NCBI GenBank assembly: GCA_946122785.1
Contig: CAMGYJ010000011.1
Span: forward strand, 54,548,449 to 54,612,448
Reading direction: 5' to 3'
Source of the DNA: Linum tenue
Taxonomy: Eukaryota; Streptophyta; Magnoliopsida; Malpighiales; Linaceae
Length of the DNA: 64,000 nucleotides
Below, in pieces: positions 22,950 through 59,830 of the stretch. The notes beneath the pieces were generated by a model. That model saw only the letters and a program-made list of their open reading frames with translations, was not told the DNA's origin and searched no databases. How positions within the stretch are numbered: position 1 is the first letter of the stretch; every line of letters begins with the position of its first letter. The position numbers were made by a program, and so were the translations under genes.

Positions 22950-23207
22950 CTCGTCATTACTTTAATACGACTTGAACTCAGATTTGAAATACAGTTATAA
23001 CCCGTTAAATTAGCCTTCTTGCTTTTATTTTTCTTGAAAATTGGGGGAAAAATCCCCTGTGTTTTCTTGATTAGTTTGGTTGAAGAAGAAAAAACACGTT
23101 ATTCATCGTGAGAGACAAGGTCATCAGACCACCGCAACAGACATCGACCCTTCTTCCCTTTAGATTGGCCTTATTAGGTTCAGAACTCGGAACCGAACTC
23201 CACTATG

Positions 23208-24214
23208 CAGGGGCGGACCCAGGGACCTTGTCCCGGGATATCCCAGAATTTTGAAAAAGCGATTATCTAAATCTCAATGATAACTTACGTATGGACAAAA
23301 AATTATAATTGATAGTCTAGGATACCATGAATTTAAAAAATCTGATTATCCTACTTTTGTTTGTAGTTTGCGTATGAGAATATAAGTGGTAATTTGAGTA
23401 ATTGAAACCCGTGACACTACTATTATTAATAAATATAATTTTCAACCATCACAAACACTTTTTTGATTATGGATCCACTACCGGAAATTCAATGGGTAAG
23501 CTTAGTATTCAATGTGTATTCCTGAACAATTTCATTTTTCAATTATTCAACCATTTCCTTTTACCAAGTTCAATGTTAATCCGATTAATAAATATTTCTA
23601 TGTTTCAGTCAGATGTGTCGATATCAATGGTGACTCATTATTTCGATGAATCATTTCTTCGGACAGAAGAAGATTATGTAAACACTTACTGGAAATCTCA
23701 CTTATCAGATTCCATTGTGGAAGACGCAATTTTTTCTGTAGGCTACAACTTTTTTTGTTGATCTAATCTGAATACGGTGTAATAGAAAAACCCTATTCTC
23801 TATATTTAATTATTTTCAAAACCCAACAATTAATCTAATTACAAGCTACCGTTAATTTATATTGATTTTATGGTTGTACGACAAGTGTTCAAAGTGTCTT
23901 TTCAGCTTTGAGTTACATCAAGAACAAATTTAGAAGTCGAATATGCATCAGTTCGTGAATGATTGTCTAGTAGGATATACTGAGACAAATTTGTTGAGTA
24001 GTGTAGGCACCAAGTGTATTTTACAATTTTTTTGAGAATATGAAAATACAAGTGTTTGCAATTTTTTTGAGAATATGAAAATACATAACTTGTACGAGTT
24101 GGGTATTTTCTTCTTTAAGAATTATTTAAATATTATCAGTTATTTATTTTTATTTTACTTTAATTATTTTCTTAAAGAGTACACCCCTATGTAAAATTCC
24201 TAGGTCCGCCACTG
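23208..24214. mobile_element. hAT-superfamily non-autonomous element, about 1.0 kb
   Basis: Terminal inverted repeats CAGGGGCGGACCCAGG at the start and CCTAGGTCCGCCACTG at the end. A perfect 8-bp target-site duplication, ccactatg, lies at 23200-23207 and 24215-24222. An open frame at 23402-23761 has no similarity I recognise and the hAT dimerisation domain is absent. Inserted in the left arm only: flanking DNA on both sides matches the right arm near 59.52-59.60 kb. Confidence 0.85.
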
Positions 24215-24222
24215 CCACTATG

Positions 24223-27200
24223 ACCAGGTCTATGCATGTATATGGTATGGTTACCTTCAATATTATAAAACTGATATAATAATATTATTATCAAATTATT
24301 TTAAGAAAATATTGATATGGATATATGAATTAAAAAAACTGAAGTCCACCACCAGGCCCATCTCTGATTTTGCAGGGTCGATGAATTGAATTTGTTGGCA
24401 CACGCGTGCATGGTGGATTGCTTGGTTGGCATGCAGCTGGAATTTACGTCCATATTTAATGAAAGAAGAAGAAGAAGAACCAGCCAGCCAGCCAGCCGAC
24501 TCATTAATACTGCTATTCATGCAAAATCAAAATCAATCAAGGTCTGAATTCTCAATATCCTTTGGCTGGTGGGTGGAAAATGGAGACTAATAATTGGGCA
24601 AAAAATCTTATCTTCTTATAAGTTGATTTTAGGCGCTTGTGTGGGCGTTCTTGAGTCACAATTTAGTGAGTCGAAATCCCAATGTTTATTGGGGGTTTTT
24701 TGGATTATTATTGCTATAGCAAGAGGAGGAAAAACGAAGTCTCGACCAATCATGGTAAAGGATAATTAATAAACTAGGTAAGCTACTTGTGCATATAATT
24801 CATTTTTTTTTACAATGATTATGAAAGAGACGGCACATGGTGGATTGTAATTAACTATATATTACTACAAACAATTTGAAATAAAAATAAAAATAGAGAC
24901 AATAGGAGAAAAAGCCAATTTTTGGCACCTTGTGCAGAAGCAGAGACCCTCTAGCGCAACTTAGAAAATCTTTTTGGCAGGCTCTTCATAATTAGAGGGG
25001 TTTTAATTAGTCTAGTGGGTATCGTGATTATTTTGAGGACGTGGGGAGTTTGGAATGTTACATGTATACAAGAGGATGTGGTTATCGTGATTATTCTGCA
25101 AACAACTCAAATCGACCCTAACATAATCATGCTGACTCATTCAATAAAATGTCACTACTAAACCAGAATACTCAAATCACAGTACTGCAAACTCTACATC
25201 GGCGCGAGCTTGATGCGTTGGGCTTAAGGCCTTGCGTCTTCTGGTGGATTGTGGGCTACTCCTCATGGTCGCGGTAATGGGTGTTGTTGCGGACTACATA
25301 CGGTCGAGTCGAATGAGAGATGGAAGGAAAATAGTGTTGTCATGGTTCTTTCAGCAGGTCGAAATATTTTTATTTTAGATACGCTGCACGAGCACACTAG
25401 CTACATACTACATAGACAAGTAGACACTAGGATTTCTTCTTCTTATTCCTTCTAATAGGGGATTTTTAATTAATAGCATCATTTCTTGACAATTAGCACT
25501 AGGCTTTTTAATAGCTAATAACTATTGGAACGCTTATTAAACAAATGCTATTATATTTATTGGGATTATGTGGTCAACGACGGTGTGGGTTTGCTTTGGT
25601 TTGATGCTATAAAGCTATGTCAGAAAGTACACATAAATTCTGAAAATAAAACAACAAGTAGAAATAAATTAAATAGTTTTGTGAACTAGCATTTTGGGCT
25701 ACATAAAAGGGGATTTGCTCAATTTCCATGAAATTTCTCAATAATGGATTAAAGCGACACCGGCAAAGGGCCATGCGTACGTACGAATGGGGTTCACAAA
25801 ACGTGTCGGGTCGTAGGAATTTGTTAGAACTTAGGAATCACAATTACGTTATTAATTCGTTGAACTAAAAAAACTCCTTTTTTTCATTTATTAAATGGAT
25901 TAGAAAGGAATTGATATGGATGGAACTAGAAATATCAAATGCGTGCGGACGTGGACGAAAAACAATATGGTTCTTTAGGTACGTTTATTGTGATTTTGTT
26001 AAAAATTCAAGTTACAATGATTTGAAAATTGGTGGAAGAATTCGGTATGATATTGTGAATATATTTTCTCGTTAGTTGTTGGTCCCAAAACTCGAACTCA
26101 GAGTGCGGTGAAAATTTTCATCCACAAATTACAACTTGACCAACCCTTTGGGTTGATATAATGATTATACTGTATATACGGTCTCTGTGTGATCCACTTC
26201 CAATATCCATCATCATACATCAGTTGATCACCTTAGTTCAATTAAGTAGGAAATTCCAAAATAACTTGCAATGTAAACACACTAGTACATTGCACTTAGC
26301 AAGAAGGATCTCCCCCGTCGTAGTTGATCGAAGAAGAAGGAAAGGAGGATTGAAGAGGAACCGAGTGGGCTAGGATACGTCCGGGGTGGGTTGGGCTCTA
26401 GGGCACCATGGTGGGTTGGGGCGTAGGGGGAACTATCGAGCTAGGGCTCATATTTCGGGCAGGGTTCGGTTAACGGTTGCAGCAAAATCCAAAAAACGAT
26501 CCTAACCCACAACATAGACCATTATGGTCTTTAATTTTTAGGTTCTCAATCCCCTAATACTCGATGAATTCAGTTTCCATTTCAGTTAAACGCAACACTG
26601 AACCCGAACATGTAGTCCTAATTTACAAATCGGTATCACTTATTCAAGATCATAAATGGCGCAACTTCTACATTCTCCTTCATAGATCATAAACTTATTG
26701 ATCTTTCCAACCACCTTGAAGTACTAGTTGCATTAGAATCAAACGGACTAGTAGCCTACATTTGCTAAGTGATTTTCTTTTCACCTAAGATATATATGTT
26801 TTGTAACTCTTAGTTAACATTGCTCTTTTACACTATTAATTTCATTGACACATACATCCACAGTAAAATCCTACATCATTTATATAAAAAACACACGATC
26901 CGCTAAAACATAATTTAATTATATTCATGTGATAGGTTAAACTATATATATCACGTATTTATGGAGAAGTATACATTTACCATGGTGTAAAAAAAAAAAA
27001 ACAAGTGGCTGGTTGACACTCTTTATCTGCCTGCAAAAGATTAGTGGCTGGTTGACTGATTGCATCGTCATTAATGAGGCAAATAAGCATGATTAGCTAT
27101 ATATAAACGCCTTCTAATGGTGTCATAAAGGTGTCGGTTTTCACCAAAGCAATGTGAAGCCAATTGGTGACATGTCTGCTAGCCGTAAGGGCATCAGAAA

Positions 27201-27876
27201 TTGCAGAAGAGAACAAAAAAATTAAAGAAGATAGAGACACACCATTAACAAAGACTAGTTAATTAATCAATTAATCAGGTTTTGAAGTTTACCTTTTGTG
27301 TTGGCCAAATGAAGAACAAGAGAGTGACAATCTCGATTGTTTAACAAACAGAAAGGACAGTGACAGATGGAGTTGTTTACTAAAGGGAAGTACAGACATA
27401 ATCCATACTAATCAGGAATTTTGGGATTAATTAAATCGACAAGATGGGATGGATATATATGACGTTGTTTAAAATTGACTAAAACCCCTTTTTTGCTGAG
27501 ATAGCAATAAAGGGTTTGTGATTTGGAGGGTGTCGTTTTCTTGTGGGGGAAAGTCAGAAGTTAGGGTTTACAGTTTCTTGGGTGCTTCCATTGCTCAGTT
27601 GGAATCCACTTCAGAGGAGCTTAAGTACGTATGTACAGTCGCTTTCATTAGGTGCATAACTTAATTAGTTAATTACAAATATAATTAAGTTCCTTAATCA
27701 TGCGTATCACGGGACAAGGAAGGAGTCAAAGACCTTCATCACTAACGTACAGAAGTAGCCCATGGGCGAGGAAGCAACCCCAAAAGGGATAAAGTGGTAA
27801 TGAGAAACTAATTCAACCACTTTGATCTGATGATGGCTGGGAATCTTGGCGCCTTCATTTAAGGTTATTATGTGAT
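24223..27876. other. Non-coding part of the left arm
   Basis: No convincing gene. Blocks of clear similarity to the right arm alternate with unrelated stretches (for example 26160-27000), showing indels since duplication. Includes a GCCAGCCAGCCAGCC / GAAGAAGAAGAA simple-repeat patch near 24465-24500 that is shared with the other arm. Confidence 0.6.
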
Positions 27877-28347
27877 TAGGGATGACAATTAAACTCGCAC
27901 ATGTAGTTTATGTACTCAACACAATCTTATTCAGTCAAAATGGGGTAAAGCTCGGAGTTGATAACGGGTTTCAGGTTAGCTGCATGCGAGTAGAAACTGC
28001 TTTTGGAATTCTCGGATTGGATTGGATTTAGGTTTGGTCAAAACTTGGTATGCTTTTCACCCAACCTGCACCGAAAAAGAAAAATGACATTGTTATATTA
28101 TGAATAAATTACGGACATTATCTGTCTTTGTGACAATATAGTTCCAATAGTATTAATAATTGTTAATGTTATCAGTCTTTATAGTAATAGTACTATAGAA
28201 ATTTTTGTATAACATAAGAATGTGGGTTTTCGGACGAATTATTCGTGGTTAATTATGTTTGTGAATCCATGGGTATTCATGGACTTGCCAGTACTCGCTG
28301 GATTAAGTTGGGTTGAAGAAACTCGACTCAACCCGACCCATTATTGT
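27877..28347. repeat. Dispersed transposon-like repeat, copy 1
   Basis: Starts AGGGATGACAATTAAACTCG and ends near GACCCATTATTGTCCCT, an imperfect inverted terminus. Similar text occurs at 60977-61308 (GGATGACAATTAAACC ... CCCGATCCATTATTGT). No target duplication found and no coding capacity. Confidence 0.45.
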
Positions 28348-28802
28348 CCCTATCTGCTACCCTTTGATACAACGACTCGTACTTTTCTAGGCCCGTTGCC
28401 AATCCCCCAATAGAGAATGATCACCTGGAGAATAATAAAATTGAAGAACTAATAGATAATTTTATTTCAAAATATGTTAGAAGGATGCTATTTTTCAAAT
28501 GAGGCTGTAATAATTTTATTTTTTTAATTAATGTAATAATTTTTATTTTAATAGGTTTATTGAAAAAATTTGAGCAACATTTGGTTCGTGAAACATGGCC
28601 TCCTGTATTCGAGGGTCGTCCTGTTCACTTAGCTATAGCCTCCAGGAGTGTGTGCAATGCATCATTTTGACATGCAATTGACCAAACTGACATTGTGATC
28701 GGACTTATTCATACTAAATGCAATAGAATTCGATTCTCGGTTACATGAATTGTTTGGATAGTAAAGGAAAAAAACCGAACCAATATTTGGAGCAGACAAA
28801 TG

Positions 28803-28999
28803 GACTTTTCGTTTAATTACGGTCCTTAAAATTCCTACACTTTCAAATCGGTTCTATCATGGTATGATTTATTAATATTGACTTTTCGTTTAATTACGGT
28901 CCTTAAAATTCCTACACTTTCAAATCGGTTCTATCATGGTATGATTTATTAATATTGAATTTTCGTTTAATTACAGTCCTTAAAATTCCTACTCAACTA
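28803..28999. repeat. 77-bp tandem repeat, about 2.5 copies
   Basis: The unit begins gacttttcgtttaattac at 28803 and 28880, with a third partial, slightly changed copy from 28957. Found only in the left-arm-specific DNA. Confidence 0.85.
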
Positions 29000-29699
29000 A
29001 TCAAAACCAATTTATGAAAAGAAGTGTCAGCTAGGTCTATTAATATTGAATTTGTTGGTAAAAGGAGACGGTAATTGTGTAGATTTGAATTCTAGAGGTC
29101 CTAACGAACAACAGATTTGTTTAGTGGGTAATACCACTAGTTTTGAACCTCGAGATTATAGGTTCAAATTCGTTAAGTAGTACTTTAAGATAGTGGTATA
29201 AGATCTAGTATAAACTTCTCTCAATAACTCGAGTTACTGAAACCAACTGGTTTATGCCATATATCACTTTTATATAGTAATAAAAAAGAATTCTAAAGGT
29301 TCTAAGTTCGAATTTTGGCGACCACTATTTTTACATTGTCCTCTTCCTGACCACCAACAAAAATATATTCTCGACTGCTCCTATGAATTTGCCGATTATC
29401 ATAAGACCGAAATTTATCGTCTTTAATGACTTTTTCATGTAACAAACAAAACAAAAAATTGTTAGAAAAACCACAAAGCTGATAAAAGTTTTATTTTTAT
29501 GTACATTCACCTGCCACTGCCAGTCAGTCAGTCATCCGTGTTTCAGTCGGTCACATGAAGCAGAGCCTGGCCGCCGATCCAAAGTTCGTTTATTGAGCCA
29601 GAGTTGCATGAGTAAATTCTACGCGCTCCTTAATTTTCTATGTTTCAATTCATCACTCTTGGCATTCTACTAAAAAATCAATTATTTTATTTACCAAGG

Positions 29700-30115
29700 T
29701 GTCAAGCAGAGTGTACAAGAGGAGCAATGGAGTTATTCGACAGAGGTGCACTCTGCTAAAGGAAGAAGACGAAGTGCAGAGGCTTGGGCCTGAAACCGGA
29801 TCGGGCTTCCTTTCACCCGGTCTAACCAAGAATCAGGACGTACATAAATAAGTGAAGACGACGACGTTTGGTTTCTCTACTGCGTCGTCAATACCAGCTG
29901 ATCGCACTTAGACACTTGTCGTCTTGTAATTGGTTAGTTTAACATGTTAGTTACTAATAGCCGTTGGAACAGTAGATTAGGAATTGTAATTAACTGACTC
30001 TGTATATATACTGCGCAAAAGGGAATGAGAAGGCATTCTGCCAAATTCCTCCAAACCCATCGTCATTTCTCAACAATTCTAAACCCTAGCAGCTCTCAGA
30101 TCTACTTTCTTCTCA
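29700..30115 (+). repeat. 5' LTR of the Copia element
   Basis: 416 bp, TG...CA ends. TGTATATATACTG at 30001-30013 is a plausible TATA box for the element's transcript. Confidence 0.95.
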
Positions 30116-30127
30116 TGGTATCAGAGC
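30116..30127 (+). promoter_or_regulatory. Primer-binding site for initiator tRNA-Met
   Basis: TGGTATCAGAGC directly abuts the 5' LTR. It is complementary to the 3' end of plant initiator methionine tRNA, the standard Copia primer. Confidence 0.93.
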
Positions 30128-30202
30128 CTGGTTAAGGCGTCTGTATACCTCTTCTTCCTACTCTGATCTTACCCTTCTTCTTCTTACACTTCGCATTTCG
30201 CC

Positions 30203-33200
30203 ATGGCTGGAAGTGAGACTTCGGATTCTGCTGAGAAGGAGGTTCCACCTCCACCTCCTCCTCGTTACGAAGATCCCTATTCCAACCCATTTTACTTGGC
30301 TCAAAGCGACAACTCTTTTCTTCCGGTGATCGGCTTCAAGTTGCCCGATGACAACTACCTCCTTTGGAGTGAGTCCATGGAGGTTGCTCTGCGCACTAAG
30401 AACAAGCTCGGCTTTGTTCTGGGAACGATTCAGGTACCCCCTTTGACAGATCCATCTTATGGGACTTGGGATCGTGTGAATGGTACTGTTGTTTGCTGGA
30501 TTAGGAATTCTGTGTCCGAAGATATTGTTCCTAGTCTTCGAAACATAGGAATTGCATCAGAAGCTTGGACTTATCTGAAATCCAAGTTCAGTCAAGGAGA
30601 TTCTATAAGAATAGCTAATTTGCAAGAGAAAGTTGACCTAGCTAAACAAGGAAATCAGACTGTTCGTCAGTATTTCACCAATTTGAAGTTGGCCTGGGAT
30701 GAACTTAAAACTTACCAACCAATACCCTATTGTGATTGTGCTGCTGGTACTTATGCTACTGTTATGAGGTATGAAGAAAGGGGAAGAGTGATTCGTTTCT
30801 TGCTGGGCCTTAATGAAAAATACCAGCAAGTGAAAACCCAGATGCTTATGCTAGATCCTCTCCCAGATCTGGACAGCATCTATCGATCTGTTGTTCAGCT
30901 TGAAAGACAGCTTGATGGGGCTAGTGCCAATGCTGGCAAATCTGAAGAAGCCATAGCACTAGCCACCGCTCTTGCAGCATCCAGGACTCAGTACAACCAA
31001 TCAAGGGACAAGACTCAGGCTGAACATCAACCAGGAGGACTGTTTTGCAGATACTGCAAAAAGGATAACCATGTCAAGGAGGATTGCTGGAAACTTAAAA
31101 GGAAGAATGGTTTACTTGGAAGTAACCCTGGCAGAGGTAACAATGCAGGGAGAGGGTTTGCTGGTTCAGTTGATGTGAATCCACCAGAGGGCAATTCTTC
31201 AGGAGGAGCTGGTTCTTACTCTCCTACCAGTCCTATAAGCCAGCAGGAACCACATTCACCAACTTTTACTGGTTTCACAGTGGATGAACTTACAAGGCTC
31301 AAGGCTTTGCTGCAACCAGCTTCCAGTTCTCATGGACCCTCTCAGGCTAATTCTGTGGTCACTAGATCACAGCCTATGTCAGGTATCCTATCCCTCTCAA
31401 CTTTGACACATAGAACCAGTGAATGTGTGTGGGTTTTGGACACAGGAGCAAGTGATCACATCATTTGCTCCATTTCTCTGTTCCTGAGATGTAAGAAGGT
31501 GCACAATGTTTCTGTTACACTACCAAATGGCCAACAAGCCTCTGTCACTCACTTAGGGGTAGTCAAACTGCCTTGTGGCATTTTCCTCACTAATGTCCTC
31601 TTAGTACCTTCTTTCTCCTATAATTTGATTTCAGTTAGCCAGCTTACCAAAAACAGCCCTGTCTCATTGCTGTTTCAATCCACTTTTTGTTATATTCAGG
31701 ACCTTATCTCTCGACAGAGGATTGGTTTAATCCCAGTAAGTAGAGGACTTTACCTTCTTGGAGATACCAGTGGCCCAGGAGAGACTTGCAACCCACAGAT
31801 TTTTGGAGTGAGCACCAGTCCAGAGAGTTCCAGTTTATGGCACAAACGGCTAGGACATCTTTCTTTAGATAGGTTGAGGAAAATTAAACAGACTTGTACT
31901 GAAGTTGTGTTACCAAACAGTTTAGAGTGTGAGGTTTGCCATTTGTCTAAACAGAAGCGTTTACCATTTCCCAGAAGTACTTCTTGTTCTAAAGAACCCT
32001 TTGATTTAATACATTGTGATATTTGGGGGCCTGTTAATGTTGTTAGTCATGATGGTTTTCAGTTTTTCCTTACCATTGTTGATGACCATAGTCGTTGTAC
32101 TTGGTTGTATTTGATGAGTCACAAGTCTGAGGTTAAGGGTTTGCTTCAGTCTTTCTTTGCTATGGTTGAGACTCAGTTCAGTAAGAAAGTGAAGGTCCTA
32201 CGTTCAGATCAGGGACAGGAGTTCAAAATGGTTTCCTTTTATCAAGAGAAAGGTTGCCTACATGAAATGAGCTGTGTTCATACTGCACAGCAGAATGGTC
32301 GAGTAGAAAGGAAGCACCAGCACATTCTAAATGTGGCTAGGGCTTTGAAGTTTCAGTCAGGCTTACCAGTTAGCTTCTGGAGCCATTTTGTGATGCATGC
32401 TATCTACCTAATTAACAGAACTCCCACTCCTGTCCTGCACAACAAGTCTCCTTTTGAGACTTTATTTGGTATCCCACCAGACTACAGCAACCTTAGGGTG
32501 TTTGGCTGTTTAGCCTTTGCCACAAACACTGAAAGCCATAAACCTAAGTTTGCCCCTCGTGCTGTCAAAGCAGTTTTCCTTGGTTACAATTTTGGCATAA
32601 AAGGTTACAAGTTGTATGATTTGGACACTCACTCAGTGTTCACCAGCAGGGATGTTGAGTTTCATGAGTCTGAATTTCCTTTCTTACCTTCTCAAACACC
32701 AGCACCTACTCCTCCATCAACCTCTTCTCCTTCAGATCATCTTCCTCCCTTTCTTTTTGATGATGATCTTCCACTACCACAGGATCATAATGTCCATGAG
32801 ACATCTGATCCTGATTACTTCCCCTCACCACCTGATTCACCTCTTTCCTCACCTCCTGCTTCTCCCATTCACTCACCTACTCCAGTACCTCCAGTTCCTT
32901 CTTCTTCTTCCTCTCCACCTACACTTCCCATTGCTCTTAGAAAAGCTTCTAGAGTTACCAGACCTCCTAAACATCTTGAATCTTTTCATACTTCTTTTCT
33001 ATCCCAGACTTGTTCATCTTCCTTTGATGACAAGCTTTTGTACCCTCTTTCCCACAGCCTGTCTTACTCTCACTTGTCCCCCTCACACAAGCATTATACC
33101 CTTTCCATTTCTATGTCTTCAGATCCTCAAACCTATGCACAGGCTGCTTTACATCCCTGCTGGAATCAAGCTATGAAGGAGGAGGTTCATGCCCTAGAGG

Positions 33201-34651: not shown

Positions 34652-34658
34652 GGGGGCG
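34650..34658 (+). promoter_or_regulatory. Polypurine tract of the Copia element
   Basis: gagggggcg immediately before the 3' LTR, overlapping the polyprotein stop codon. Confidence 0.8.
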
Positions 34659-43880: not shown

Positions 43881-44124
43881 ATGACCTTGATCTAGAAAAA
43901 GTACATTTAGTTTTAGAAAACCTCTAGTGTATTTTCCCAAGATATATAATAATGTAGTGGAGATTCCAAATCTATGGTATCATTGTTAGAGACTCATTAT
44001 TAGGATAAAAGAAAACTATCAAGTTTTAACAGGAGGGATTTTGGGGAAGAAAAGGAACAAAATTAAGAATTTGAGAAATGAAGGATGAAGTTTGATTTTG
44101 TTTCCATATTATTTATGTAGAAAC

Positions 44125-47030: not shown

Positions 47031-48360
47031 TAATAACTAACGAGTATAGATATATATGCGTCATTTTTTGTGAAAAATGATTCAATTAAAGATACCATCC
47101 CTTACCATAGAATCGATAAAGCCAAATTTTTCATAGAATAAAGACACATTCCCAAATCCGAACCCATTTGGCCAATAATATCGAATTTGTGCATCTAAAG
47201 TCTCTACAACACCCAAGCCCTTTCTCCATCGAAGTCTTAGATGGAGAGCAAGAAACTGAGCAAAGACAAACTAAAAAAATCTCAAAGCATCACAAATTCG
47301 AAAATAGCACCTACATAAGGTGATATTTAGAACTCATTCGAACACATCCAATCAACCCTTAAATTGTACATTTACTTCATTGTCGATCAAAATATCTGAT
47401 CACTGTCGAGTTCGTCAACTCTTACAAAAGTAACTAATATATATATAGTAGCACTATCGTCTGTCACAAGTTTTACACAAATGTTTGACTATTTTGTGTA
47501 TGTAGAAAAGGATAGAGTATTATTCTCATTTGACTTTTAGGGTATTGTTAATCACGATGTGTTAGATAAAGAAAGCAATACATACAACCCAATACATTAT
47601 TATACGTTTGTATACAATGACCTCCAACCCTACTTACACATTGATTTCAACCACCCAATTCTATGATGGGTAATTAGCCGCGTCAAATAGATTAACCAGC
47701 ATTTAATTACAAGTGCAGTCCGGCCACTTATTCCTCGTTAACTTTTTTGGATCCTTGTGCATTGAAAAAAAAGCTTCATTGTTATATCTTATCACCATTG
47801 CTAAGTGTCATTTGACAATGGACATGTTCCTGATCGGTAAGAAATGTGAAAGCGAAACCATGTATGTATGTCAACACGTTACATATCTTGCACTACTCAT
47901 TGCACACGAGCCCGGCCAAAAACGTGCTCTTCGAGTTGACAATTAGTACTCCCTTTCCACAAAACTTTAGGATGGTTTTGCAAGCAATGTATGTACGCCG
48001 CACAACACAAATTTTAGCAACTATACGTACGTGGACTCACATTACATTGATTTTCTTGTTTCGTTTAAATACGAAATTCGTGTTGTTCGAATCCCATGTA
48101 ACATTAGAATATGGTGTTTACGGTAATTTTGTATCTTAATTGCTCTTTTTTTTTTTTACCAAATCCACTACTTTCTCGGGAAGTCGGTAGTAATTTACTA
48201 TTAGTGATGCCAATTTGAATCTATTTCACCGGGTATTATCCTACCTTACCCGCATTATGAACGATAGTACAGGAACTGTAGTAGCATGGGGTATTGGGAT
48301 TGGGTATATGTATTACTTCCACCTTGTCCCACCACGTTCTACCTCGATTTGTCTCCATAT

Positions 48361-48542
48361 CTATTTTTATTTCTCCTATTTGGATATTATATCTTAACTA
48401 AAACTTCAATGATCTTTACATTAGTGTAAGGGTTCATCTTTCAATCACTAACTATTTTTGTTTCTCCTGTTTGGATATTATATCTAAACTAAAATTTCAA
48501 TGATCTTTACATTAGTGTAAGGCTTCATCTTTCAATCACTAA
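48361..48542. repeat. 91-bp tandem duplication
   Basis: Two copies starting at 48361 and 48452, differing at a few bases. Non-coding. Confidence 0.85.
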
Positions 48543-48736
48543 CTGGACTCAATTAATCTACATATTGTCTCTATTTTTAACTATTTTCACTTTGTTTCAT
48601 TTTTAAAAGTAAATATTTTCTTAAAATAATATAAGAAATGGTAGACCTGCATCGATCCGTATACATATGACTATCACCCGATCTCACCCGCGAGCTGCAC
48701 TTGGTGTAGAACATATATGGATATTGCGATACCTCC

Positions 48737-49160
48737 GGTGGAGTAGCCAGAAAATTATTTAAAGCTAGGTTTAACGTGAAAAAATATAAAGTATATTTTA
48801 GAACGTGTTTTTATATTCTTAAGAATTTCTAAAATACATTCATCATGCAAATTATGAGAGATATTAAGATATACCCACCAAAAAATCATTCATGATTTCG
48901 TCACTCATCTTATTCGAAAGTGTTTCTTCTTTTTGTTCATTATAGTAACTACTCGTACAACACTTACCGTGACATTTGATAGCATACAAAATATATAAAT
49001 TAAAAGCTAATAGATACAAATATTTATTTCTCTTAAAGTTGTTTTCAATAATAGATCAATCTTGTATTCAATTCTCAACCACATAAAAAATTTATTGCAA
49101 AATTTTTTAACCGAAATAATGCAAATAACCTAACTTGACCTCAAATGATTCAACCATTGA
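48737..49160. repeat. hAT-like relic, third member of the 19.5-kb family
   Basis: Begins GGTGGAGTAGCCAGAAAATT; the interior matches the 19511 element in order (TCATGCAAATTATGA, AAAATCATTCATGAT, ATTATAGTAACTA). No clean terminus or target duplication remains. Confidence 0.5.
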
Positions 49161-50436
49161 TTTACCCGCTCCATTGTCATATTACTATTTACAATATTGG
49201 TAATGAAATGAAACTGAAAGCAAGAGTGGGGGTGGAAAAACTCGAGCGGCAGCACCAAATGTCCAAACATTAATTCTCTCGACAAAAAGAATTCTAAGCT
49301 GTCGCAACCCTGATTAGCGTTGTATAGTAAGAAAAACTCGAGTCTACTAAGTACGGCAGAAGATCCTCAAATGTGACTCAAACCTCCTACACCAATTGCG
49401 TTGTTGTCTTGATATCATTGACTCTGAATAATTAATTAAGGCCTTAATTTGGTGGAGAAAGTGACTATCCGATGGTTAATAGGGACATGGACACTTGATA
49501 ATATTAATCCTCTCCTAGCCTGCCTTGCATGCGTCGGCGATCAAATCTTATAGCTTTTTAAGATAGTTTTCAAGTTGCGATTCAGGAATTTAATTCTAAT
49601 TTGTTGTATATTGCACATCAGTTGATTCAACAGGCTAGTGGTGCGGGATGTGTTGGTCGCAGTTGTAATAGAGTGATTCATTTGATGTGCACGAAATTCG
49701 TTTCAATACGAAATTCGTTTAGAATATATAAGTGATTAGCTTGTGATTTTTTTTGTATATTTCTTTTGTTCGATTATACAAGTGATTTTTTTTGGAAATA
49801 AAACAAGATAATCACTAATCATCGCGCATCAAAGCTGAATCTATGCCATCATCATCCATAACATATTTTTGTTTTGATGAGGATGTTCGTTTTTTACTGA
49901 TCGTAAAAATTCCTTCGTCGATTAACGAATTGATACTTAATTTCTTTATTCTGTGTTCGATATATGATACTATTGTAGAATGATTTTCACCCATTTTCTT
50001 TTTACTCTCCGGTCAATTTGAGTCGAGGTAGATCATGAAACCCATAACAGAACAATCCAAGAGACAGACAACATAAAAAAAATTCATTAACAAGACAGAA
50101 ACAATTGAACTCCACTTTGTGTGACAACGGAAAAAGGTACACCACTTGCTCGAGGAGAGCAAGCAAAAAAAATCCCCTCCCGCCCTCACAGAAAACCAAA
50201 ATTACAGACTCTTTTTTTTTTTTTTTGGTATACTGTATACACACTTCCCTTTTCTCCCCTTAACATTATAATTTTTTTTTTCTTCTCAAGTAACAAAATC
50301 GTTCCTCTTTTTTTCCCCCTTCATTTTCTCCTCAAAGAATAGGTATGTGACCAACCAATCAATCAATAGAATAAAAATGACCTTCCCCAGCAAAGGCCAC
50401 CAAAAAAAAAAATCTCTTCCTTTCCCACCACCAATA

Positions 50437-51789
50437 TTACTGGCTCGACCCGGTCCGTCGTCGATACTGGTCGACGAACCGGTGCAGCCTATCCAAGGCG
50501 ACGTTGAGCGTCGCCTCGCTCATGTTAGCGAAGCAGACGCGGAACCACCCCGGCTCGGAGCAATGACACGACGAGCCGGGGGAGATATTGAGCCTGACGT
50601 CCCTGACTATCAGATTCCACAGCGCCAGCTCGCCTTCCTTGGTCGACTCCTTGAGCAACGGACCGAGGTTCATCCAGCAGAACAGCCCCGCGTTGCCACG
50701 TAGGCACTCGATCCCGGCGCGACGCAGCCCGGCGATGATCACGTCGTACCTCCTCCTCAGCCGCTCCCTGTTCGTCTTTATGTAGTCGGCGGTGAATTCC
50801 TCGTCGGAGAGCATGCAGGCGAGGAGGTGCTGCGTCTGCGAAGAGATGAGCGTGAAGCTCGACATCCTTCTCGCGGTGGTCACGACGGCGTCGTTGTAGG
50901 AGTAGATGGTCCCCACGCGGAACCCGGGGAGGCCCAGGTCCTTGGACAGGCTGTACACGATGTGGACCCGCTCCCGGTCCACGTGGCGGGAGCCGCGGGA
51001 CTCGAGGACCTCGGCGATGCTGACGAACTCGGCGGACGAGAAGGTGGAGCCCGAGTAGATTTCGTCGGACACGAGGTGGATGTTCTTCTCCACGGCGAAG
51101 TCGAGGATCTGCTCCAGTGCGGCGCGCTGCACCGTGGCGCCCAGGGGGTTGGAAGGGTTGGTGATGAGGACGCCGCGGACCGTGAGGCCGCGCGAAACGG
51201 CGTCGTCGTATGCGGCGTGGAGGGCGGATTCGGTGATCTGGAAGTTGTTGGAGCTGTGGCAGTGGATGGGGACGATTTGGACGCCGGTCCGCCACCTCAG
51301 GTCCCGGTCGAACCCCGGGTAGTACGGGGTCGGGATGAGGAGGGCGTCGCCCGGGTTGGCCAGGATGAAGGTCAGGAGCTCGTTGGCCGCGGTCGCGCCC
51401 GCGGTCAGGACGACCCGGTCCGGGTCGAACCGGGCGCGGCCGCCGCGGATTTGCTCCATGAAGGAGGCCATTGCCCCGCGGAAGGATTTGAGGCCGTGGT
51501 AGTCCTGGAAGAGGGCGTTGTCCCTGAACCCGGCCGTGGCTCCCTTCCCCCACGTGGCGGCCTCGGAGTGGCGTTCGAGGAAGTCCTCGAGCAGGTCGAA
51601 GGAGACCTGGTTTTCGGCCAGACCCATCTGGATCACCCCGCTCGGGTTGGTCAGCTCGTCGTACGGGTTCTCGTCGTAGGCCTTCCACCCGGCGAAGTAC
51701 GGAGAGTCTTCTCCGTGGGTTTCGGAGACTGCGATTCTGGAGAGCGCCACGGCGGCGGGTTTTGGCTGCTGCTCGAGCTCGATCGCCAT
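50437..51789 (-). CDS. ACS7: 1-aminocyclopropane-1-carboxylate synthase, type III (ACS7-like), copy B
   Basis: 450 aa, one exon, the inverted partner of copy A, with the same catalytic residues including Lys283 and Arg417 and the same short tail. Codons 1-271 appear identical to copy A at every base. After that there are scattered silent changes and six replacements relative to copy A: Asn335Asp, Val337Ile, Ala350Val, Glu380Lys, Thr382Ser and Asp429Asn. None touches a residue I recognise as catalytic, so both enzymes should work. The leader differs just before the ATG (a short indel), so the identity block starts abruptly at the start codon. The two genes point at each other, 8.9 kb apart. 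Confidence 0.95.
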   Translation of the reverse strand: MAIELEQQPKPAAVALSRIAVSETHGEDSPYFAGWKAYDENPYDELTNPSGVIQMGLAENQVSFDLLEDFLERHSEAATWGKGATAGFRDNALFQDYHGLKSFRGAMASFMEQIRGGRARFDPDRVVLTAGATAANELLTFILANPGDALLIPTPYYPGFDRDLRWRTGVQIVPIHCHSSNNFQITESALHAAYDDAVSRGLTVRGVLITNPSNPLGATVQRAALEQILDFAVEKNIHLVSDEIYSGSTFSSAEFVSIAEVLESRGSRHVDRERVHIVYSLSKDLGLPGFRVGTIYSYNDAVVTTARRMSSFTLISSQTQHLLACMLSDEEFTADYIKTNRERLRRRYDVIIAGLRRAGIECLRGNAGLFCWMNLGPLLKESTKEGELALWNLIVRDVRLNISPGSSCHCSEPGWFRVCFANMSEATLNVALDRLHRFVDQYRRRTGSSQ

Positions 51790-52002
51790 TATAATTAAGA
51801 AGTTGGTGGGAATTGAAGTGGGTTTCTTCTGAAAGAGACAAGGTATAAGAAGTGAGAGAGCTAGCTTTTCTTTCTTCTTTCTTCTTCCTTAGTATAGGGA
51901 AAAAAACAGACAGAAGTCTGTGAGGAAGGAAGAGAGAGGAAAAAGGAGAGAGATTTGTGAATGTTGGAATGAATGATTTGTGGAAGGAGAAGAAGAGGCT
52001 AC

Positions 52003-52012
52003 TTATATATAG
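52003..52012 (-). promoter_or_regulatory. TATA box of ACS copy B
   Basis: CTATATATAA on the minus strand, about 220 bp upstream of the ATG, equivalent in position to that of copy A. Confidence 0.65.
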
Positions 52013-52929
52013 AGGGGGAAAGAGTGTTTTTTGTATATTGGGCCTAATATAATATAGGAAAGGGGGGGAAAGGGTAATGGAGGGATTCAGAATAAAAATA
52101 AAATCAATGATTCTATGGTGTAAGCAAATATGATGAGGGACAAAATCCACTTCTTCTTGTTCATTTTTCGCAGAGATCAATGAGGAAGAGAGATTGGTCT
52201 TTTTTTGTTTAATCTTGACAACTGTATATGTTGTGGTTCTGTCAGCTGCCCCTTTGCAAAAAATTTCTTTATCCCAATCTCCACAAGATCCCACACACCG
52301 AATATGGTGGTTGAATGTGTACAGTGGGGGGGAGAGAGAGAGAGAGGGGTTGGTGTTAAAAGTTGGTTTGATTTCAATCTCTTTTCTTCTCTCTCACTTC
52401 CCACCCTTTTAGCTTCTTCATACCTCAACTAATACTAATGTTAATGAGTGATAAAATTGGGATTTTAGAATGAATGCAATTAAAGTTATAGTAATTTACA
52501 AAACTTGAAATTGGTTTTTAGAGCAGAAGGGGCTTAATTTGTTTAATGAATAGTGGCAAATTTTACTAAACTCTTTGATCAAATCAGGGGGCAGCGAAAG
52601 TACGCGGAGCCAAGGATCGATACAACCCCAACTGAGTAAACAACGAGAATACACTACATCACCACAGCAGTCACAATCACAACCTACATCGATCACCCAT
52701 AAAAAAAAGTAAGGAATCTTCGATCATGGAAGAAGGATTATATTAGCTATGATCTTGGTCATCATTAATATATAGTAACCCAAAACTAGCCACCACCAAA
52801 CCTATGACTAGCAAGTTGAAGAATTTTGTTTACTAAAACCAGAATCATCATTACAATGGGCAATCAATCATATGCATATATGCCTTTAGCAAATTAATAT
52901 TACAGACATTAACAAAAAAAAATTAATAT

Positions 52930-53180
52930 TACAGAAGGGGGCGGCAGATCTAAAGAGTAGTTGAAAGTTCTACTAATGACTTGACAAAGATACCCATTTT
53001 AACACAAGATTTTAAGATTCTGATTTTGGTTATAACCCAAAGCTTTGATGACCTAAACAGAAGCCCAAAGGAGATCTCATGACCCCACAACCCACTCCTT
53101 CTCTCTCCTTGCTAAATGATCATTAGCAACAAAGTTTATAACGTCATTTAACTTAACCCTTCACTAAGCTTCTATTAATG
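52930..53180 (-). promoter_or_regulatory. Upstream block conserved between the two ACS copies
   Basis: Reads almost base for base like 38100-38360 in the left arm (for example GTCATGAGATCTCCTTTGGG and AAGCTTTGGGTTATAACC), better conserved than most of the arm. About 1.2 kb upstream of the ACS start here and about 1.9 kb upstream in copy A. A shared distal regulatory region is possible. Confidence 0.45.
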
Positions 53181-53189
53181 GCAATGTTT

Positions 53190-54260
53190 TTATGGGTGTC
53201 TCAAAAGAGGAAGTAACACTTGGTTTGCTTTGGAAATTTTGGCTTGTCTCTTTTTCAGTTCATCAATGAGCTTATATGATGTAGGGTTTGTGGTTTACAG
53301 TTCAAGGAAAGAAAACAAACTTGGGACAGAAGAAAGTACAACCTGAAAGTGGAAAAAGTGCAAATTAAGAAGTTGTGGACTTGATTGGTAATTTGCCAGA
53401 GACCACTTCACTCCAGGTGCGATGCGTCGTCGTCTCGGTTGAAGATTGGATTGGGTTTAATGGATACGACGTCGTCTCCATTCTAATGGTCGACAGGTTT
53501 GAAGATTGGAGCACTGTCTCCTCCTGTGCTGATTCTGTTTCCAGATAAGGCGAAGAAAAACAAATGTTTTTCTTTGATAGGAAGAGCTAAGAGGAGGGAG
53601 GCTACAGACCTTGAAATCAAGATTTATGAATTCAAAGCATGACACCACACAATCGATACTGTACAACGAGGAGGGGGAAGAGGAGGAAAAGTTACGACTC
53701 TTAAATTTAAGATCTCCGTGTTGAAAGTCAAAACGACCACTCAATCAAACATTTGTTGTGTTGCTTCCTTTCTTCGCCCTCGTTGTTTGTATCTCCTCCA
53801 TGTTGCTTCCTTTTCTACTTCTGTTTACTCCGTCAGGTCAATGCTTTTGATCCGTTGTTGTTCCTCTGTTGTGTACTGATATTCTACTTCGTTTCTTTTT
53901 CTTTATGGATTTAATCGCTCGTACCCAAAAAAATGGCATCCAAAACCCAAGTTATGCATGTGATTAATAAATGAGCGGCTGAATTAATATTTCATTTAAT
54001 TGATCTGCCATAGCTACATGATTTGTGTTTTTCCAATCTTCCCTAAACGATCAAGATTGAATTGAAGCATTAAGAGAATTCCTTGCCTAGTTTTGATGTG
54101 GGATGGGTAATCGTTTAATAATAGTTTAGTACTTTATTATATGTACTTATTTAGCTTGATTAGTATTTTCGACTCGGTTCTGTATATGTATTGTACTTGT
54201 AGTCATTCGGCTAGCTTAATGATGATCAAATAACAGGAGCCCTAGCTAGTGCCTTTTCGT
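53190..54260. other. Right-arm-specific insert, unknown nature
   Basis: About 1.07 kb with no counterpart in the left arm, where the flanks join near 38050-38100. It contains a 95-codon minus-strand frame (53744-53457) without recognisable similarity. No inverted termini or target duplication located; alternatively the left arm lost it. Confidence 0.4.
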
Positions 54261-54580
54261 TTTATTCTCAAACTTCTCTCTATATTCTCTCAACCAAATC
54301 TCAATTCTACCTCATTTTATGATCAAGTTTAATGATCGAGATTAGCATGGGTAATTAGTTGAGAGAGGTGGGTTAAGACTAAGCTAAGTACTTAAGTAGG
54401 ATATGTGTGAAGGAATATATATACAACAGAATAGGTGGCAATTGAAGATGTGGGAAAATCTATGATGTTTGCTACATTTGCTTTGCCTACTACATGTAAG
54501 ACATGAAGATGCTTGTCGAGATTGTGTTTCTATGTAGATTTTCAACTAACAAACTCATCAAGAACCAGATAACCAATACT

Positions 54581-54584
54581 AATA

Positions 54585-54676
<92 letters not shown>
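54581..54676. repeat. ATT trinucleotide microsatellite, about 32 units
   Basis: An essentially pure ATT/AAT run of 96 bp, present only in the right arm, at the place where the left arm has about 250 bp of other sequence and the Mutator-like element. Confidence 0.97.
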
Positions 54677-54689
54677 GCTAGCAACTGAC

Positions 54690-56220
54690 GCTCGCAAGTG
54701 ATGATCATGGATGTGTGGGGCTCGATGAACCATATGAATATACCCATGTGCAGATTTCAACTCAAGGCCTAGAGATTTTGCGATATGGTGATCAACCGAA
54801 ACAAAACTATATATACATAAACTAGTACTTAATCAAAATAGTAATTAAATGGATTGTATATCTATTAATTGAGAAATTAGGGGATATACCATGATAAGCT
54901 ATGTACCGACTTATTTATGTTCTTGTATTTGAAAATTTTGTAAGATGCATTCATATGATATATCAGTATCAATATATTTTATCAAATAATCATTCAAGAT
55001 TTTGACATCATCCATTAAATATCGAAGTATTTTCACGTGCATCATTGTAAATGTCTTTCAACACTTTCCGTGGTAGTTTAGGTAGAAACAATACTAAATT
55101 ATCATTGACTCGACGAGAATTTCATCAAAGTGGTGTCCAAAAACAAAATATTCTTACTAGCATACGATAACAGTTCTATTATGTTTAATTGCCTCTTTCC
55201 AGACTTATGTAGTTTGCAATTATATATTTTTTTTAAATCAACTGCACATAAATGATAAAAAAAAGTTGTAATTTCATCAAATTCAACATCTAATTAAACT
55301 CGGGCAAAAATCATGTAATAACACCAAGATTCCCAGACATCATCAAATCAAAGTGGTTGAATTAGTTCCTGGTTACCACTTATCCCTTTTGGGGTTGCTT
55401 CCTCGCCCATGGGCTACTTCTGTACGTTAGTGATGAAGGTCTTTGACTCCTTCCTTGTCCCGTGATACGCATGATTAAGGTACTTAATCATTATATTTGT
55501 TATTAACTAATTAAGTTATGCACCTAATGAAAGCGACTGTACATACGTACTTAAGCTCCTCTGAAGTGGATTCCAACTGAGCAATGGAAGCACCCAAGAA
55601 ACTGTAAACCCTAACTTCTGAGTTCTGACTTTCCCCACAAGAAAACGACACCCTCCAAATCACAAACCCTTTATTGCTATCTCAGCAAAAAAGGGTTTTA
55701 GTCAATTTTAAACAACGTCATATATATCCATCCCATCTTGTCGATTTAATTAATCCCAAAATTCCTGATTAGCGTGGATTATGTTCTGTACTTCCTTCTA
55801 CTAAACAACTCCATCTGTCACTGTCCTTTTTTTCTGTGTTAAACAATAGAGATTGTCACTCTCTTGTTCTTCATTTGGCCAACACAAAAGGTAAACTTCA
55901 AAACCCAATTAATTGATTAATTAATTAGTCTTTTGTTAATGGTGTGTTTATCTTTCTCTGTCTCTCATCTTTAGATTTTTGTTCTCTTCTGCAATTACTG
56001 ATGCCCTTATACGGCTAGCTAGCAGACATATCACCAATTGGCTTCACATCATTGCCTGGTGAAAACCGACATTTTTATGACACCATTAGAAGACGTTTAT
56101 ATTGCTAATTCGTGCTTAATTGCCTCACTAATGACGACGCAATCAGTCAACCAGCCACTCATCTTTTGCAGGCAGGCAGAGAGAGAGAGAGTGAACCGGC
56201 CAATTGCTTCACTACGATAA
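54690..56220. other. Non-coding right-arm DNA
   Basis: Clear similarity to left-arm blocks 35300-35880 and 27000-27880, which are contiguous here. This junction near 55300 marks where the left arm carries 7.4 kb of extra DNA. No gene seen. Confidence 0.55.
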
Positions 56221-56455
56221 ATTTTTACTTCTAAATAAATATATGATATATATTAACCTCTCGCGAGAATTAACAACCGTTCAATTCGCTTTTCTACCCA
56301 AAATATACTATGGTGCTGGTTGCTGGAATTGTATTGTTTCGAGTTCCGGTAACAGAACAATTCGGTTCAGGTAACGGAAACAACCCGAATTTAAGTTCTA
56401 CTCTAATCAATAGAGGTCAACTGACAAAAAAATAAGAGGAAGTTACGAGACATAT

Positions 56456-56886
56456 TTAATGTTGTCAGAACCGAACCGGAGCATGGTCTGGTAATGCGAA
56501 CGGCTCGCATTTTAGTGGTCCAACCGGCATTAGACCGTTTAAAACCGTTACAGAACCGGTACCTAATAAACATTATCCGTACAAATAGTGGACATTTCTT
56601 AATCAGAGCTCGTCTCTTTCCTTCAAAATTTTGAAATGGAAATAAGGATTCAGTTTGAGAGCCCGACGTTTTTTGTTTATTTCAATTTTCAGCAATTTCT
56701 TTAATTAAATTTAATGGCGCGCAGAATGGCAAAAACCGTACGAGCGGCTCGTTCGGCTCGAGCGGTTTACCGCCTCGGCCGCTCGTCAACCACTACATAA
56801 AACCGGAACGGCTTTTAAACTGTTCCGAGCCGATTTTGTGACCGGGTGACGGTTTTACCGGTGCTCGGCCCGACTTTAATAACACA
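56456..56886. repeat. CCGG/CGGCTCG-rich transposon-like block, right arm only
   Basis: Rich in AACCGG, GGCTCG and GAGCGG words, bounded roughly by TGTTGTCAGAACCG and CGACTTTAATAACAC, which form weak inverted ends. Typical of decayed plant DNA transposons. No target duplication identified. Confidence 0.4.
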
Positions 56887-59160
56887 TTATTTACAAACAA
56901 AAAGTAGAACTAAAAAAAAGAAAGAGGTAGGCTTGCTCTACCAATGGTTTACAGTTCCTTAAGTGAGATTAGAGTAGAGGTTTCACTAGAATTGTCTAGA
57001 ATTAAGGAAACCATACAATTAATTAATTAGTTAGTTCATAATTAGCCATGGAATAGCATACTTGTAGGCCAATCACATACTATATGAATCTTCTTGGAAG
57101 ATGGTGCTCAAATTACGACGATCAGCCACGTAGACAACTCTTTTTTGAATATTCGATTCATATCTTGTTGTGCTTCAAAAGCATCCACACTAAAACTAGT
57201 TTATAGAATCAGATTGGGGTAGGTCACAGGAGATTATGATCGCTGACTTTTTCCTTCCCAAATTGATTCTTAAGCAATTTCATATTAAGAAAAGTTAACT
57301 TTATGAGTTTCTTATGAGACTATTGTACAAAATGTCGATAATAATAATAATAATATGTCTTAGTTTAAATAGGCGATTAATTGTATATCTTGAAAAATTA
57401 AGTACATAAAACTCAAATGTGTTTTGTCCATTATTAGCAAAGCTACTCCATCTCTTTGGCTAATCACTTCGTCTTGGCCAAAAGGTCGAGAAAGATATAT
57501 CTCTCTAGCTAATCACGAATCCTACTATATTGTGCTGGTCATTGTGTTATGTGTAGTTACGAAACAATTGATCCCAATAAATCAAGTTATTCGAACTCAA
57601 TATTAGTTAAACTGGATTCCTGTACCGATCAGTCGAACTTGTCTACCTATTGTCAAATCATCGTAACTTGGAATTTTAACGAAATCGCCATAAACATACT
57701 TCGAGAGCTGTTTTTTTTTCTCCGTCCACGTCCGCACTCGTTTCTAGTTCCATCCATATCAATTCCTTTTTAATTCATTTAATAAATGAAGAAAACTAGT
57801 TTTTTGAGTTCAACGAATTAATAACGTAATTGTGATTCCTAAGTACTAACAAATTCCTACGACCCGACACGTTTTGTGAACCCCATTCGTACGTACGCAT
57901 GGCCCTTTGCTGCCGGTGTCGCTTTAATCCATTCGTGAGAAATTTCATGGAAATTGAGCAAATTCCCTTTTATGCAGCCCAAAAGGTTAGTTCACAAAAC
58001 TATTTAATTTATTTTAGTTCCTTTTTTATTTTATTTTTTTATTTTCAGAATTTGTGTGTACTTTCTGACTTAGCTTTGGAGCATCAAACCAAAGCAAACC
58101 CACACCGTCTTTGACCACATATATAATAGCATTTGTTTAAGGAGCGTACCAATTGTTGGCTATTAAAAAGACTAGTGCTAATTGTATATATATAACCGAT
58201 TATATTAATTAAATATCCTCTATTAGAAAGAAGAAGAAACATTCATAGTGTCTAGCTAACTAGCTTGCTTGAAGATATCTTAAATAAAATATTTAGAGTC
58301 CGCTGAAAGAACCATGACGAGATTATTACTTTCATCCATTATTTGGCTCGACCTTCACAACCCCACATTTGTTACCACAACCACGAGAAAGTAGCCCAAT
58401 CCACCAGAAGACGCGAGGCCTTGAGTGTAGCATTCTAGTTTAGTAGTGACACTTGTTGATTGGGTGATTAGCATGGTCGATCGCGTTAGAGTCAACTTGA
58501 GTTGTTTGTAGAATAAACATGTCCACCTTAGCGGAACATTAGGGTCCAAATATGTTAGATATTGGCCGAAATAACAATATTAGAAAATAAAAAAGGGAAT
58601 TAGCTAGGGCCTAGGAGAATAGATTGTGTCAAGTGCGTCATAATTCAAAATTGTCCTCTCAATAATTGGAAGGTAAAACCATTCTAATCAAATGATTCCA
58701 ACACATTAATTAACTACATAAACATAAACCACACACTACCATACTATTGTTCATCATTACTTAATCACTTATATACATAAACTTAAACCTCAAAATCACA
58801 ATACCACCATACTAAAGACCCTCTAGTTCTGCTTCTGCAGAAGGTGCCAAGAATTGGCTTTTTTTTTCCTCCTCGTGTCGTCCTTTTTTTTTTTCTTCTT
58901 TCAAAATGTTATGAATATATAGTAATTTACAATCCACCATGTGCAGTCTCTTTCATAATAATTGTAAAAAAAAAAATGGATTATATATACAAGTAGCTTA
59001 GCTAGTTTATTATCCTTCACCAAGATTGGTCGATATATATACATCGTTTTTCCCCTCCTCTTGCTAGCAATAATAATCCAAAACCCAGAATAAACATTGG
59101 GATTTCGACTCACTAAAATTGTGACTCAAGAACGCCCACACAGGCGCCTAATTAAAATCC
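56887..59160. other. Non-coding right-arm DNA
   Basis: Alternates segments similar to the left arm (57840-57925, 58375-58425, 58800-58870) with unshared DNA. Short open frames here also appear in the opposite arm only as decayed text and are not supported as genes. Confidence 0.5.
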
Positions 59161-59830
59161 AACTTACAAGAAGATGAGATTTTGGTGGGCAATTATTAGT
59201 CTCCATTTTCCACCCACCAGCCAAGGATATTGAGAATTCAGACCTTGTTTGATTTTGATTTTTGCATGAATAGCAGTATTAATGAGTCGGCTGGCTGGCT
59301 GGCTGGTTCTTCTTCTTCTTCTTCTTCTTTCATTAAATATGGACGTAAAGTCCAGCTGCATGCCAACCAAGCAATCCACCATGCACGCGTGTGCCAACAA
59401 ATTCAATTCATCGACCCTGCAAAATCAGAGATGGGCCTGGTGGTGGACTTCAGTTTTTAATTCATATATTGATATTGGTCTTAAGAAGAAGAAAAAACAA
59501 TCATGATATTATAGCAATTATGTATTATGGAGTTCAGTTTTGAGTTCTGACTTAATAAGGCCAATCTGAACTCTAAAGGAAGAAGGGTTGATGTTGTGGT
59601 GATCCCACTTTGTCACTTATGAATCACTTTTTATCCCCCCCATCAAAACAATCGATAGAATACAGGGTATTTTATTACAAATATATTAGATATATGAGTA
59701 ATTCAAACAAAAAAAAAAAATCAGCAAAAAATTAAATATTAAAATTAGAAAGAAAAATGACAGCAGGCAGGCTAATTTGGTTGAAAGTCCAGGTTATATT
59801 TGGCACCGGTCCTGAGATTTTGGAGTTCAT

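Follow-up and report, generated by a model that had tools for sequence, protein, structure and literature searches.

ACC synthase (ACS) supplies ethylene biosynthesis with its committed precursor, and what keeps duplicates of its gene alike is an open and testable question. It is raised by a stretch of 64,000 nucleotides from Linum tenue (C11:54548449-54612448; hereafter the window), in which two intact ACS7-like genes, ACS-A and ACS-B, lie in the opposite arms of an inverted duplication; a second palindrome was found on contig C9 of the same genome. Our analysis, which covered the contig sequences of one assembly, indicates that the locus was very probably formed by duplication with in-place intron loss and shaped by arm-to-arm gene conversion and by a crossover that inverted the spacer between the arms. 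An initial annotation of the window had missed the conversion, the spacer inversion, the second locus, the intron loss and the GC island described below.

Two ACC synthase genes in the arms of an inverted duplication

Comparison of the window with itself joined a left arm (23007..41844, plus strand) to a right arm (50062..59778, minus strand) by 11 inverted high-scoring segment pairs (HSPs) at E<=1e-8, and a dinucleotide-shuffled left arm, searched at an unchanged word size and E threshold, gave none in 30 of 30 trials. A sensitive rerun at E<=1e-3 returned 13 HSPs, two of them overlapping at the ACS genes, which leaves 12 collinear blocks; all are strictly antiparallel in order, from 23049/59673 to 41844/50062. 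Outside these blocks, the outermost stretch up to 23007/59778 is marginal, with a score of 38 compared with 36 as the maximum of 20 shuffles. The spacer measures 8217 bp (41845..50061), and at its inner ends, of which 1.66 kb each was tested, homology did not rise above that of shuffled sequence. These blocks bear out the initial claim of a large inverted duplication around a spacer of about 8 kb. A dot-plot without an antidiagonal outside the ACS coding region had been named as evidence against it; in fact, 4723 noncoding bases align between the arms, and 432 of them differ (9.1%). The overlapping HSP at 39491-41595 was left out of the divergence profile and of the compositional windows.

Each arm carries a complete 450-codon open reading frame (ORF) for an intronless type-III ACC synthase, in agreement with the annotated pair of intact tail-to-tail genes. 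ACS-A, an ACS7 ortholog of 450 amino acids, occupies 40205..41557 on the plus strand (PF00155, 1.2e-93); ACS-B converges on it from 50437..51789 on the minus strand (PF00155, about 1e-93). Their proteins are 98.7% identical and differ at six residues. The nearest solved relative of ACS-A is Arabidopsis ACS7 (7dlw; 762 bits, with 595 for the apple ACS), and the pyridoxal-phosphate lysine motif SLSKDLGLPGFRVG is unchanged in all 11 aligned ACS proteins. The C-terminus of ACS-A stops 6 residues beyond its match to Arabidopsis ACS7, whereas the apple enzyme (473 amino acids) extends 40 beyond its own match. Thus, the ACC synthase fold, the short C-terminus, the grouping with ACS7 orthologs and the ACS7 synteny place the pair in the ACS7 class. 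None of the six columns that vary between ACS-A and ACS-B is invariant in nine other ACS7 proteins, and two come close to it (337, with I in eight of nine; 429, with E in eight of nine). With a dN/dS of about 0.14 in codons 272-450 (6 nonsynonymous versus 13 synonymous changes), the differences look as if they were under constraint.

Two ACS7-like proteins of Linum perenne, P0003 and P0014, are only 83% identical, which indicates an additional, earlier duplication of ACS7 in Linum. The protein P0002 of Dillenia turbinata, which ranked second with 953 bits, was dropped as a close relative: this public protein of 786 amino acids contains two ACC synthase copies one after the other, is only 55-60% identical and is perhaps a tandem pair fused by annotation. 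It was likewise excluded from the 119-protein ACS composition comparison given below.

Probable conversion of the coding regions and probable inversion of the spacer

The first 813 nucleotides of the coding sequence (CDS; codons 1-271), at 40205..41017 on the plus strand in ACS-A and 50977..51789 on the minus strand in ACS-B, are identical at 813 of 813 positions, compared with 19 differences in the 540 nucleotides of the 3′ part (41018..41557 in ACS-A, plus strand; synonymous divergence Ks 0.107). Synonymous changes number 0 in 199 sites in codons 1-271 versus 13 in 130 in codons 272-450 (Fisher P 4e-6), or 0, 0, 0, 4 and 9 in successive bins of 90 codons, and in a longest-run test of A/B identity 0 of 20000 trials reached the observed run. 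Another 79 identical bases lie in the 5′ untranslated region (40121-40199), upstream of a small difference before the ATG. The flanks of the two genes are diverged, with 47 of 505 bases differing in the promoter and 54 of 282 in the 3′ flank. A tract of zero synonymous divergence thus lies inside a diverged duplication, as is characteristic of a gene-converting palindrome.

A search of the L. tenue genome with PF00155 gave at least 10 matches (9 of 124 candidates were scored). At least four are full-length matches in one open frame, namely the window pair and a tail-to-tail pair on C9, whose genes are intronless, encode 448 and 449 residues and have a GC content at third codon positions (GC3) of 0.91 and 0.90. 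The minus strand of C9 from 55.89 down to 55.80 Mb matches both flanks of the palindrome at about 90-99.9% identity, from 10 kb left of the window through 19.1 kb and from 62 to 74 kb. In contrast, spacer blocks at 42075-50061 match the plus strand of C9 at 55.824-55.831 Mb, for the most part with 89-96% identity and, in weaker pieces near 48.4-49.1 kb, with 77-78%. Since the spacer matches the plus strand and the flanks the minus strand, the spacer is inverted relative to its conserved flanks within this assembly. A block of at least 80 kb is nearly common to the two chromosome-size contigs, in opposite orientation (C9 55.80-55.89 Mb, C11 54.54-54.62 Mb).

The four gene copies, ACS-A and ACS-B on C11 and the right (R) and left (L) copies on C9, were aligned from the start codon, and sites were counted from -600, the poorly aligned DNA farther upstream being excluded. 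From -600 to -1, 30 of 31 informative sites pair A with R and B with L, that is, by arm. Within CDS 1-813, all five pair A with B and R with L, that is, by locus (Fisher P 1.6e-5 versus upstream), the grouping of concerted evolution, here between C11 and C9 of one genome. Sites in CDS 814-1353 follow no single pattern (two outer, one by locus and two spacer-side), and at 1354-1650 the pairing is A with L and B with R at 53 of 54 sites (Fisher P 6e-22 versus upstream). The near 3′ flank pairs opposite to the upstream DNA as a consequence of the spacer's inversion relative to the flanks. The simplest place for an arm-to-arm crossover is CDS 1009-1176 of ACS-A (41213..41380, plus strand), where outer-flank pairing switches to spacer-side pairing. 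The C9 pair differs at 11 of 813 positions in CDS 1-813 versus 56 of 474 at -600 to -86 and has for this reason probably been converted too, though less recently.

We asked whether stronger purifying selection could account for the identical 5′ half without any conversion, an explanation to which we assign a negligible probability. Many residues of this half are indeed conserved. However, selection on the protein is insufficient, because synonymous changes escape it and none of the 199 synonymous sites has changed, against 13 of 130 downstream; moreover, the five informative sites of the 5′ CDS pair by locus and those upstream by arm.

According to the favoured history of duplication, conversion and crossover, the introns of ACS7 would have been lost in place in a Linum ancestor, and an inverted duplication of the gene, together with about 8 kb of upstream DNA, would then have followed. 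From that time on, the arms would have paired and recombined at the near-identical ACS coding regions. Gene conversion would keep the coding regions alike, on C11 most recently in codons 1-271, and one or more crossovers within the arms would have inverted the spacer, leaving the C11 and C9 versions in opposite orientations. In the simplest case, one crossover in CDS 1009-1176 would have occurred on one lineage, with conversion of the 5′ CDS within each lineage. The outcome would be two intact ACS7 enzymes per locus, both presumably expressed.

The ungapped divergence between C9 and C11 in 1-kb bins ranges from 0/999 to 69/991, with 0-0.7% at -10 to -5 kb, 4-7% at 16-18 kb, 7-8% at 67-68 kb and 1-2% at 71-73 kb. 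Uneven as it is, and high beside the palindrome, the divergence would suit haplotypes of a single locus between which recombination occurs at a distance from the inversion; alternatively, the two could stem from a recent duplication, with exchange between the copies. We further considered that the ACS7 twins may be the handles of a living flip-flop, in which the spacer inverts repeatedly in the population while conversion homogenises the core and pushes it toward GC. We regard this as speculative and rather unlikely, although divergence that is high next to the palindrome and low 10 kb away would be expected around an inversion between alleles, and both spacer orientations occur within the one assembly.

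Inverted repeats are a known failure mode of assembly, and a misassembly could underlie the palindrome itself, the locus on C9 or the flip of the spacer; with 0/999 differences at -10 kb, C9 or C11 could also be a retained alternative haplotype. For the palindrome, this is opposed by arms that are 9.1% apart in noncoding DNA and have a Ks of 0.107 in the 3′ CDS, by an unrelated spacer, by left-arm transposons with target duplications and by the same palindrome on the diverged C9. For the flip, the identical stretch is shorter than 1.4 kb, below the usual length of long reads. Taken together, we consider an artefact improbable.

Several observations nevertheless weigh against duplication followed by conversion and crossover. 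The crossover point is loose because informative CDS sites are few (10 in 1353 nucleotides): its interval rests on two CDS sites per side, and lone contrary sites lie at CDS 1348 and 1367. The flipped C9 spacer could be an orientation error of the single assembly, and C9 and C11 may represent either alternative haplotypes at a single locus or copies from a recent duplication. The small A/B difference directly before the ATG falls inside an otherwise identical stretch. Finally, uneven divergence alone is no proof of conversion, since islands of low divergence between the arms (2 of 150 at both 27523-27672 and 37707-37856) may be conserved regulatory DNA. The upstream block at 37707..37972 (partner 54320-54587) differs at 7 of 266 positions (binomial P 2e-5 versus the 9.1% mean, for a block chosen after the profile was inspected) and is either conserved noncoding DNA or an older tract.

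Ancestral locus, intron loss and neighbouring elements

The genes occupy the ancestral ACS7 locus, an argument that rests on the Hevea tags P3X46_007647 (PPR), P3X46_007648 and P3X46_007650 (ACS7), which correspond to the neighbourhood in the window. A DYW-type PPR gene, a syntenic neighbour of ACS7 in Hevea, lies at 4578..7805 on the plus strand (stop-to-stop ORF); its best protein match is in Linum trigynum (940 of 978 residues), followed by L. grandiflorum and L. perenne at 73%, so that this gene identifies the genus and places the window near L. trigynum. The gene at 9973..10929 on the minus strand has no Pfam domain and is a relative of P3X46_007648, which one source assigns to the Exo70 family. 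ACS7 and PPR stand on one contig in 8 of 17 genera, a weak tally with genera picked by eye. A retrogene inserted elsewhere was rejected, as the neighbours are the ancestral ones.

In published accounts, the Hevea type-3 ACS genes HbACS6/7 are given three introns (PMC4346948), CsACS2 and CmACS-7 two (PMC2701604), and the quinoa ACS genes three to six exons (PMC10707884). All four L. tenue copies have none in place of the two or three of ACS7 genes, a departure in gene structure and not in protein class. Since all introns are cleanly lost at an unmoved locus, replacement by a reverse-transcribed copy is suggested, and it would predate the C9-C11 split. Word searches of the open literature returned no relevant report on an intronless ACS7, on Linum ACC synthase together with gene duplication, or on flax ACS genes.

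At 7e-9 substitutions per site per year, a rate taken from PMC12371154, the Ks of 0.107 corresponds to 7.6 million years (My), the mean noncoding divergence of the arms to 7.0 My and the gap-rich 3′ flank to 15.8 My, and the Ks of 0.034 between the C9 and C11 PPR genes to about 2.4 My. The palindrome predates the C9-C11 split. For five S-linked genes, PMC11114476 gives a dS between L. trigynum and L. tenue of 0.017-0.10, for which reason L. trigynum may well carry the palindrome.

The intron loss at the syntenic locus coincides with an extreme shift in base composition. The GC content of the ACS-A CDS is 65%, that of the adjacent flanks 30-36%; GC3 is 0.90-0.91 in all four copies and 0.41 in the PPR gene, and the eight GC-richest 600-bp windows (n=212) all overlap the two ACS CDSs. 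With 37 Arg versus 8 Lys, the window ACS protein has the highest GARP/FYMINK ratio of 119 ACS hits (1.41; mean 0.89, sd 0.08). GC-biased conversion is a possible cause. It is opposed by a sage protein at 1.27 without a known palindrome, by named Linum relatives at 0.95-1.08, by the rise ending at the CDS edges (GC of 30-36% immediately outside), and by the weak relation between GC and divergence in the arms (Spearman -0.27, P 0.07, 47 windows). A word search of the open literature for GC-biased and ectopic conversion in plants found no report, and nothing wider is claimed.

The left arm is longer because it contains a copia element, a MULE-like element and other unmatched DNA. The copia long terminal repeat (LTR) retrotransposon is intact (5375 bp; 29700..35074, plus strand), with identical 416-bp LTRs, the target duplication CAAGG and an uninterrupted gag-pol ORF of 1494 amino acids at 30167-34651; the identical LTRs and the open frame point to a very recent insertion. 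The MULE-like transposon lies at 36111..37665 with the 9-bp target duplication TTGTAAAAA. Both elements are confined to the left arm and absent at the matching places of C9 and are probably, for this reason, late arrivals. Where the left arm has the MULE-like element, the right arm has about 31 perfect ATT units (54585-54676).

The spacer holds a foldback element of about 1 kb (45967-47032), with an inverted repeat of its own that is 87% alike and with 21-bp subrepeats of the GGTCGACC type; 988 of its nucleotides fold into a single hairpin (-638 kcal/mol; z -57 relative to 20 shuffles). C9 lacks the element, its flanking matches meeting there with a 12-bp overlap, and it looks therefore like an insertion on C11. 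That this central element created the palindrome was rejected, as the C9 palindrome exists without it. Short repeats, 73-88% alike, are shared by the spacer and the region left of the left arm (19170-19246/44167-44340 and 19561-19871/48834-49093). Rfam and tRNA scans of the window gave no match, and 12 of 16 window ORFs tested against Pfam had no domain.

Regulation, dosage and known systems

The initial annotation had called type III the least post-translationally restrained ACS class. This holds insofar as the class lacks the C-terminal sites for calcium-dependent (CDPK) and mitogen-activated (MAPK) protein kinases; as a general statement it goes too far, since PMC3808318 describes proteasomal degradation of ACS7 as well as its in vitro phosphorylation by CDPK16 at Ser216, Thr296 and Ser299, and PMC10707884 names XBAT32. 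Both window copies keep the CDPK16 target residues (S213, T294, S297).

An extra ACS7 copy might raise ethylene and alter floral sex or distyly. This is compatible with the intactness of both enzymes, whose proximal upstream DNA can be aligned over about 500 bp, and with the precedent of cucumber (PMC7072070). Read from sequence, such dosage and sex effects are unsupported, and two ordinary working ACS7 enzymes per locus would be most likely. The cucurbit analogy of the initial annotation breaks down over the type of ACS, its orientation and the biology: at the cucumber F locus, CsACS1 is reported to be duplicated in a tandem of 30.2 kb and to have a recombinant promoter (PMC7072070), thus a direct repeat of a different ACS, and CsACS1G is reported as 53-62% identical to CmACS-7 (PMC2701604), whereas the Linum ACS7 copies are inverted and their proximal upstream DNA is homologous. 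The candidates put forward for the Linum S-locus are TSS1 and WDR-44 (PMC12371154, PMC11114476), and "ethylene" was not found in the main texts of these two papers. No S-locus gene was recognised in the window, although no search with those genes was made. Linum is hermaphrodite, and many of its species are distylous. We consider a dosage or sex switch improbable, and on present evidence we advise against building on a connection with sex or distyly.

Tail-to-tail genes could also produce double-stranded RNA by read-through and thereby silence ACS7, as inverted chalcone synthase genes form a silencing locus in soybean. The convergent arms of 1392 nucleotides are 98% complementary; however, the loop would span 8.8 kb and the ORFs are intact in all four copies. 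The observed/expected ratio of CpG is 1.13-1.15 in both window ACS copies, compared with 0.49 in the PPR gene, 0.20 in the copia ORF, 0.84 in the spacer and 0.88 in the gene at 10 kb. Because of these ratios there is no sign of long-term methylation decay, which speaks against chronic methylation, and we hold a silencing locus to be improbable as well.

In duplication with conversion and a spacer-inverting crossover, one small locus would combine both arm-to-arm outcomes: a coding core that is converted and intervening DNA that is inverted, the point of the switch falling within the genes. The rates, direction and population frequency of this recombination can be measured by standard PCR or by long-read sequencing.

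When inverted arms recombine, the segment that they enclose is flipped, and the Linum locus resembles such inversions in its spacer, which is opposite in two related versions, and in the pairing that switches inside the arms; it differs in that two intact genes for hormone synthesis form the recombining core, known here from one assembly. Mammalian Y palindromes undergo arm-to-arm gene conversion, as plant sex-region palindromes reportedly do. There too, inverted gene copies are kept similar by conversion while their surroundings diverge, but the Linum arms are old and eroded (9% noncoding divergence), the converted core is short, and a link to a sex chromosome would be speculative. With the cucumber F locus (CsACS1/CsACS1G) it shares the local segmental duplication of an ACC synthase gene; the cucumber repeat is direct, measures 30.2 kb, has a recombinant promoter and a proven phenotype, whereas the Linum one is inverted, old and of type III. 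ACS7, CsACS2 and CmACS-7 are orthologous enzymes with the same short C-terminus, and the ACS7 neighbours are those of Hevea; unlike them, the Linum pair is intronless, has a GC3 of 0.90-0.91, is arginine-rich and lysine-poor, and stands in inverted orientation.

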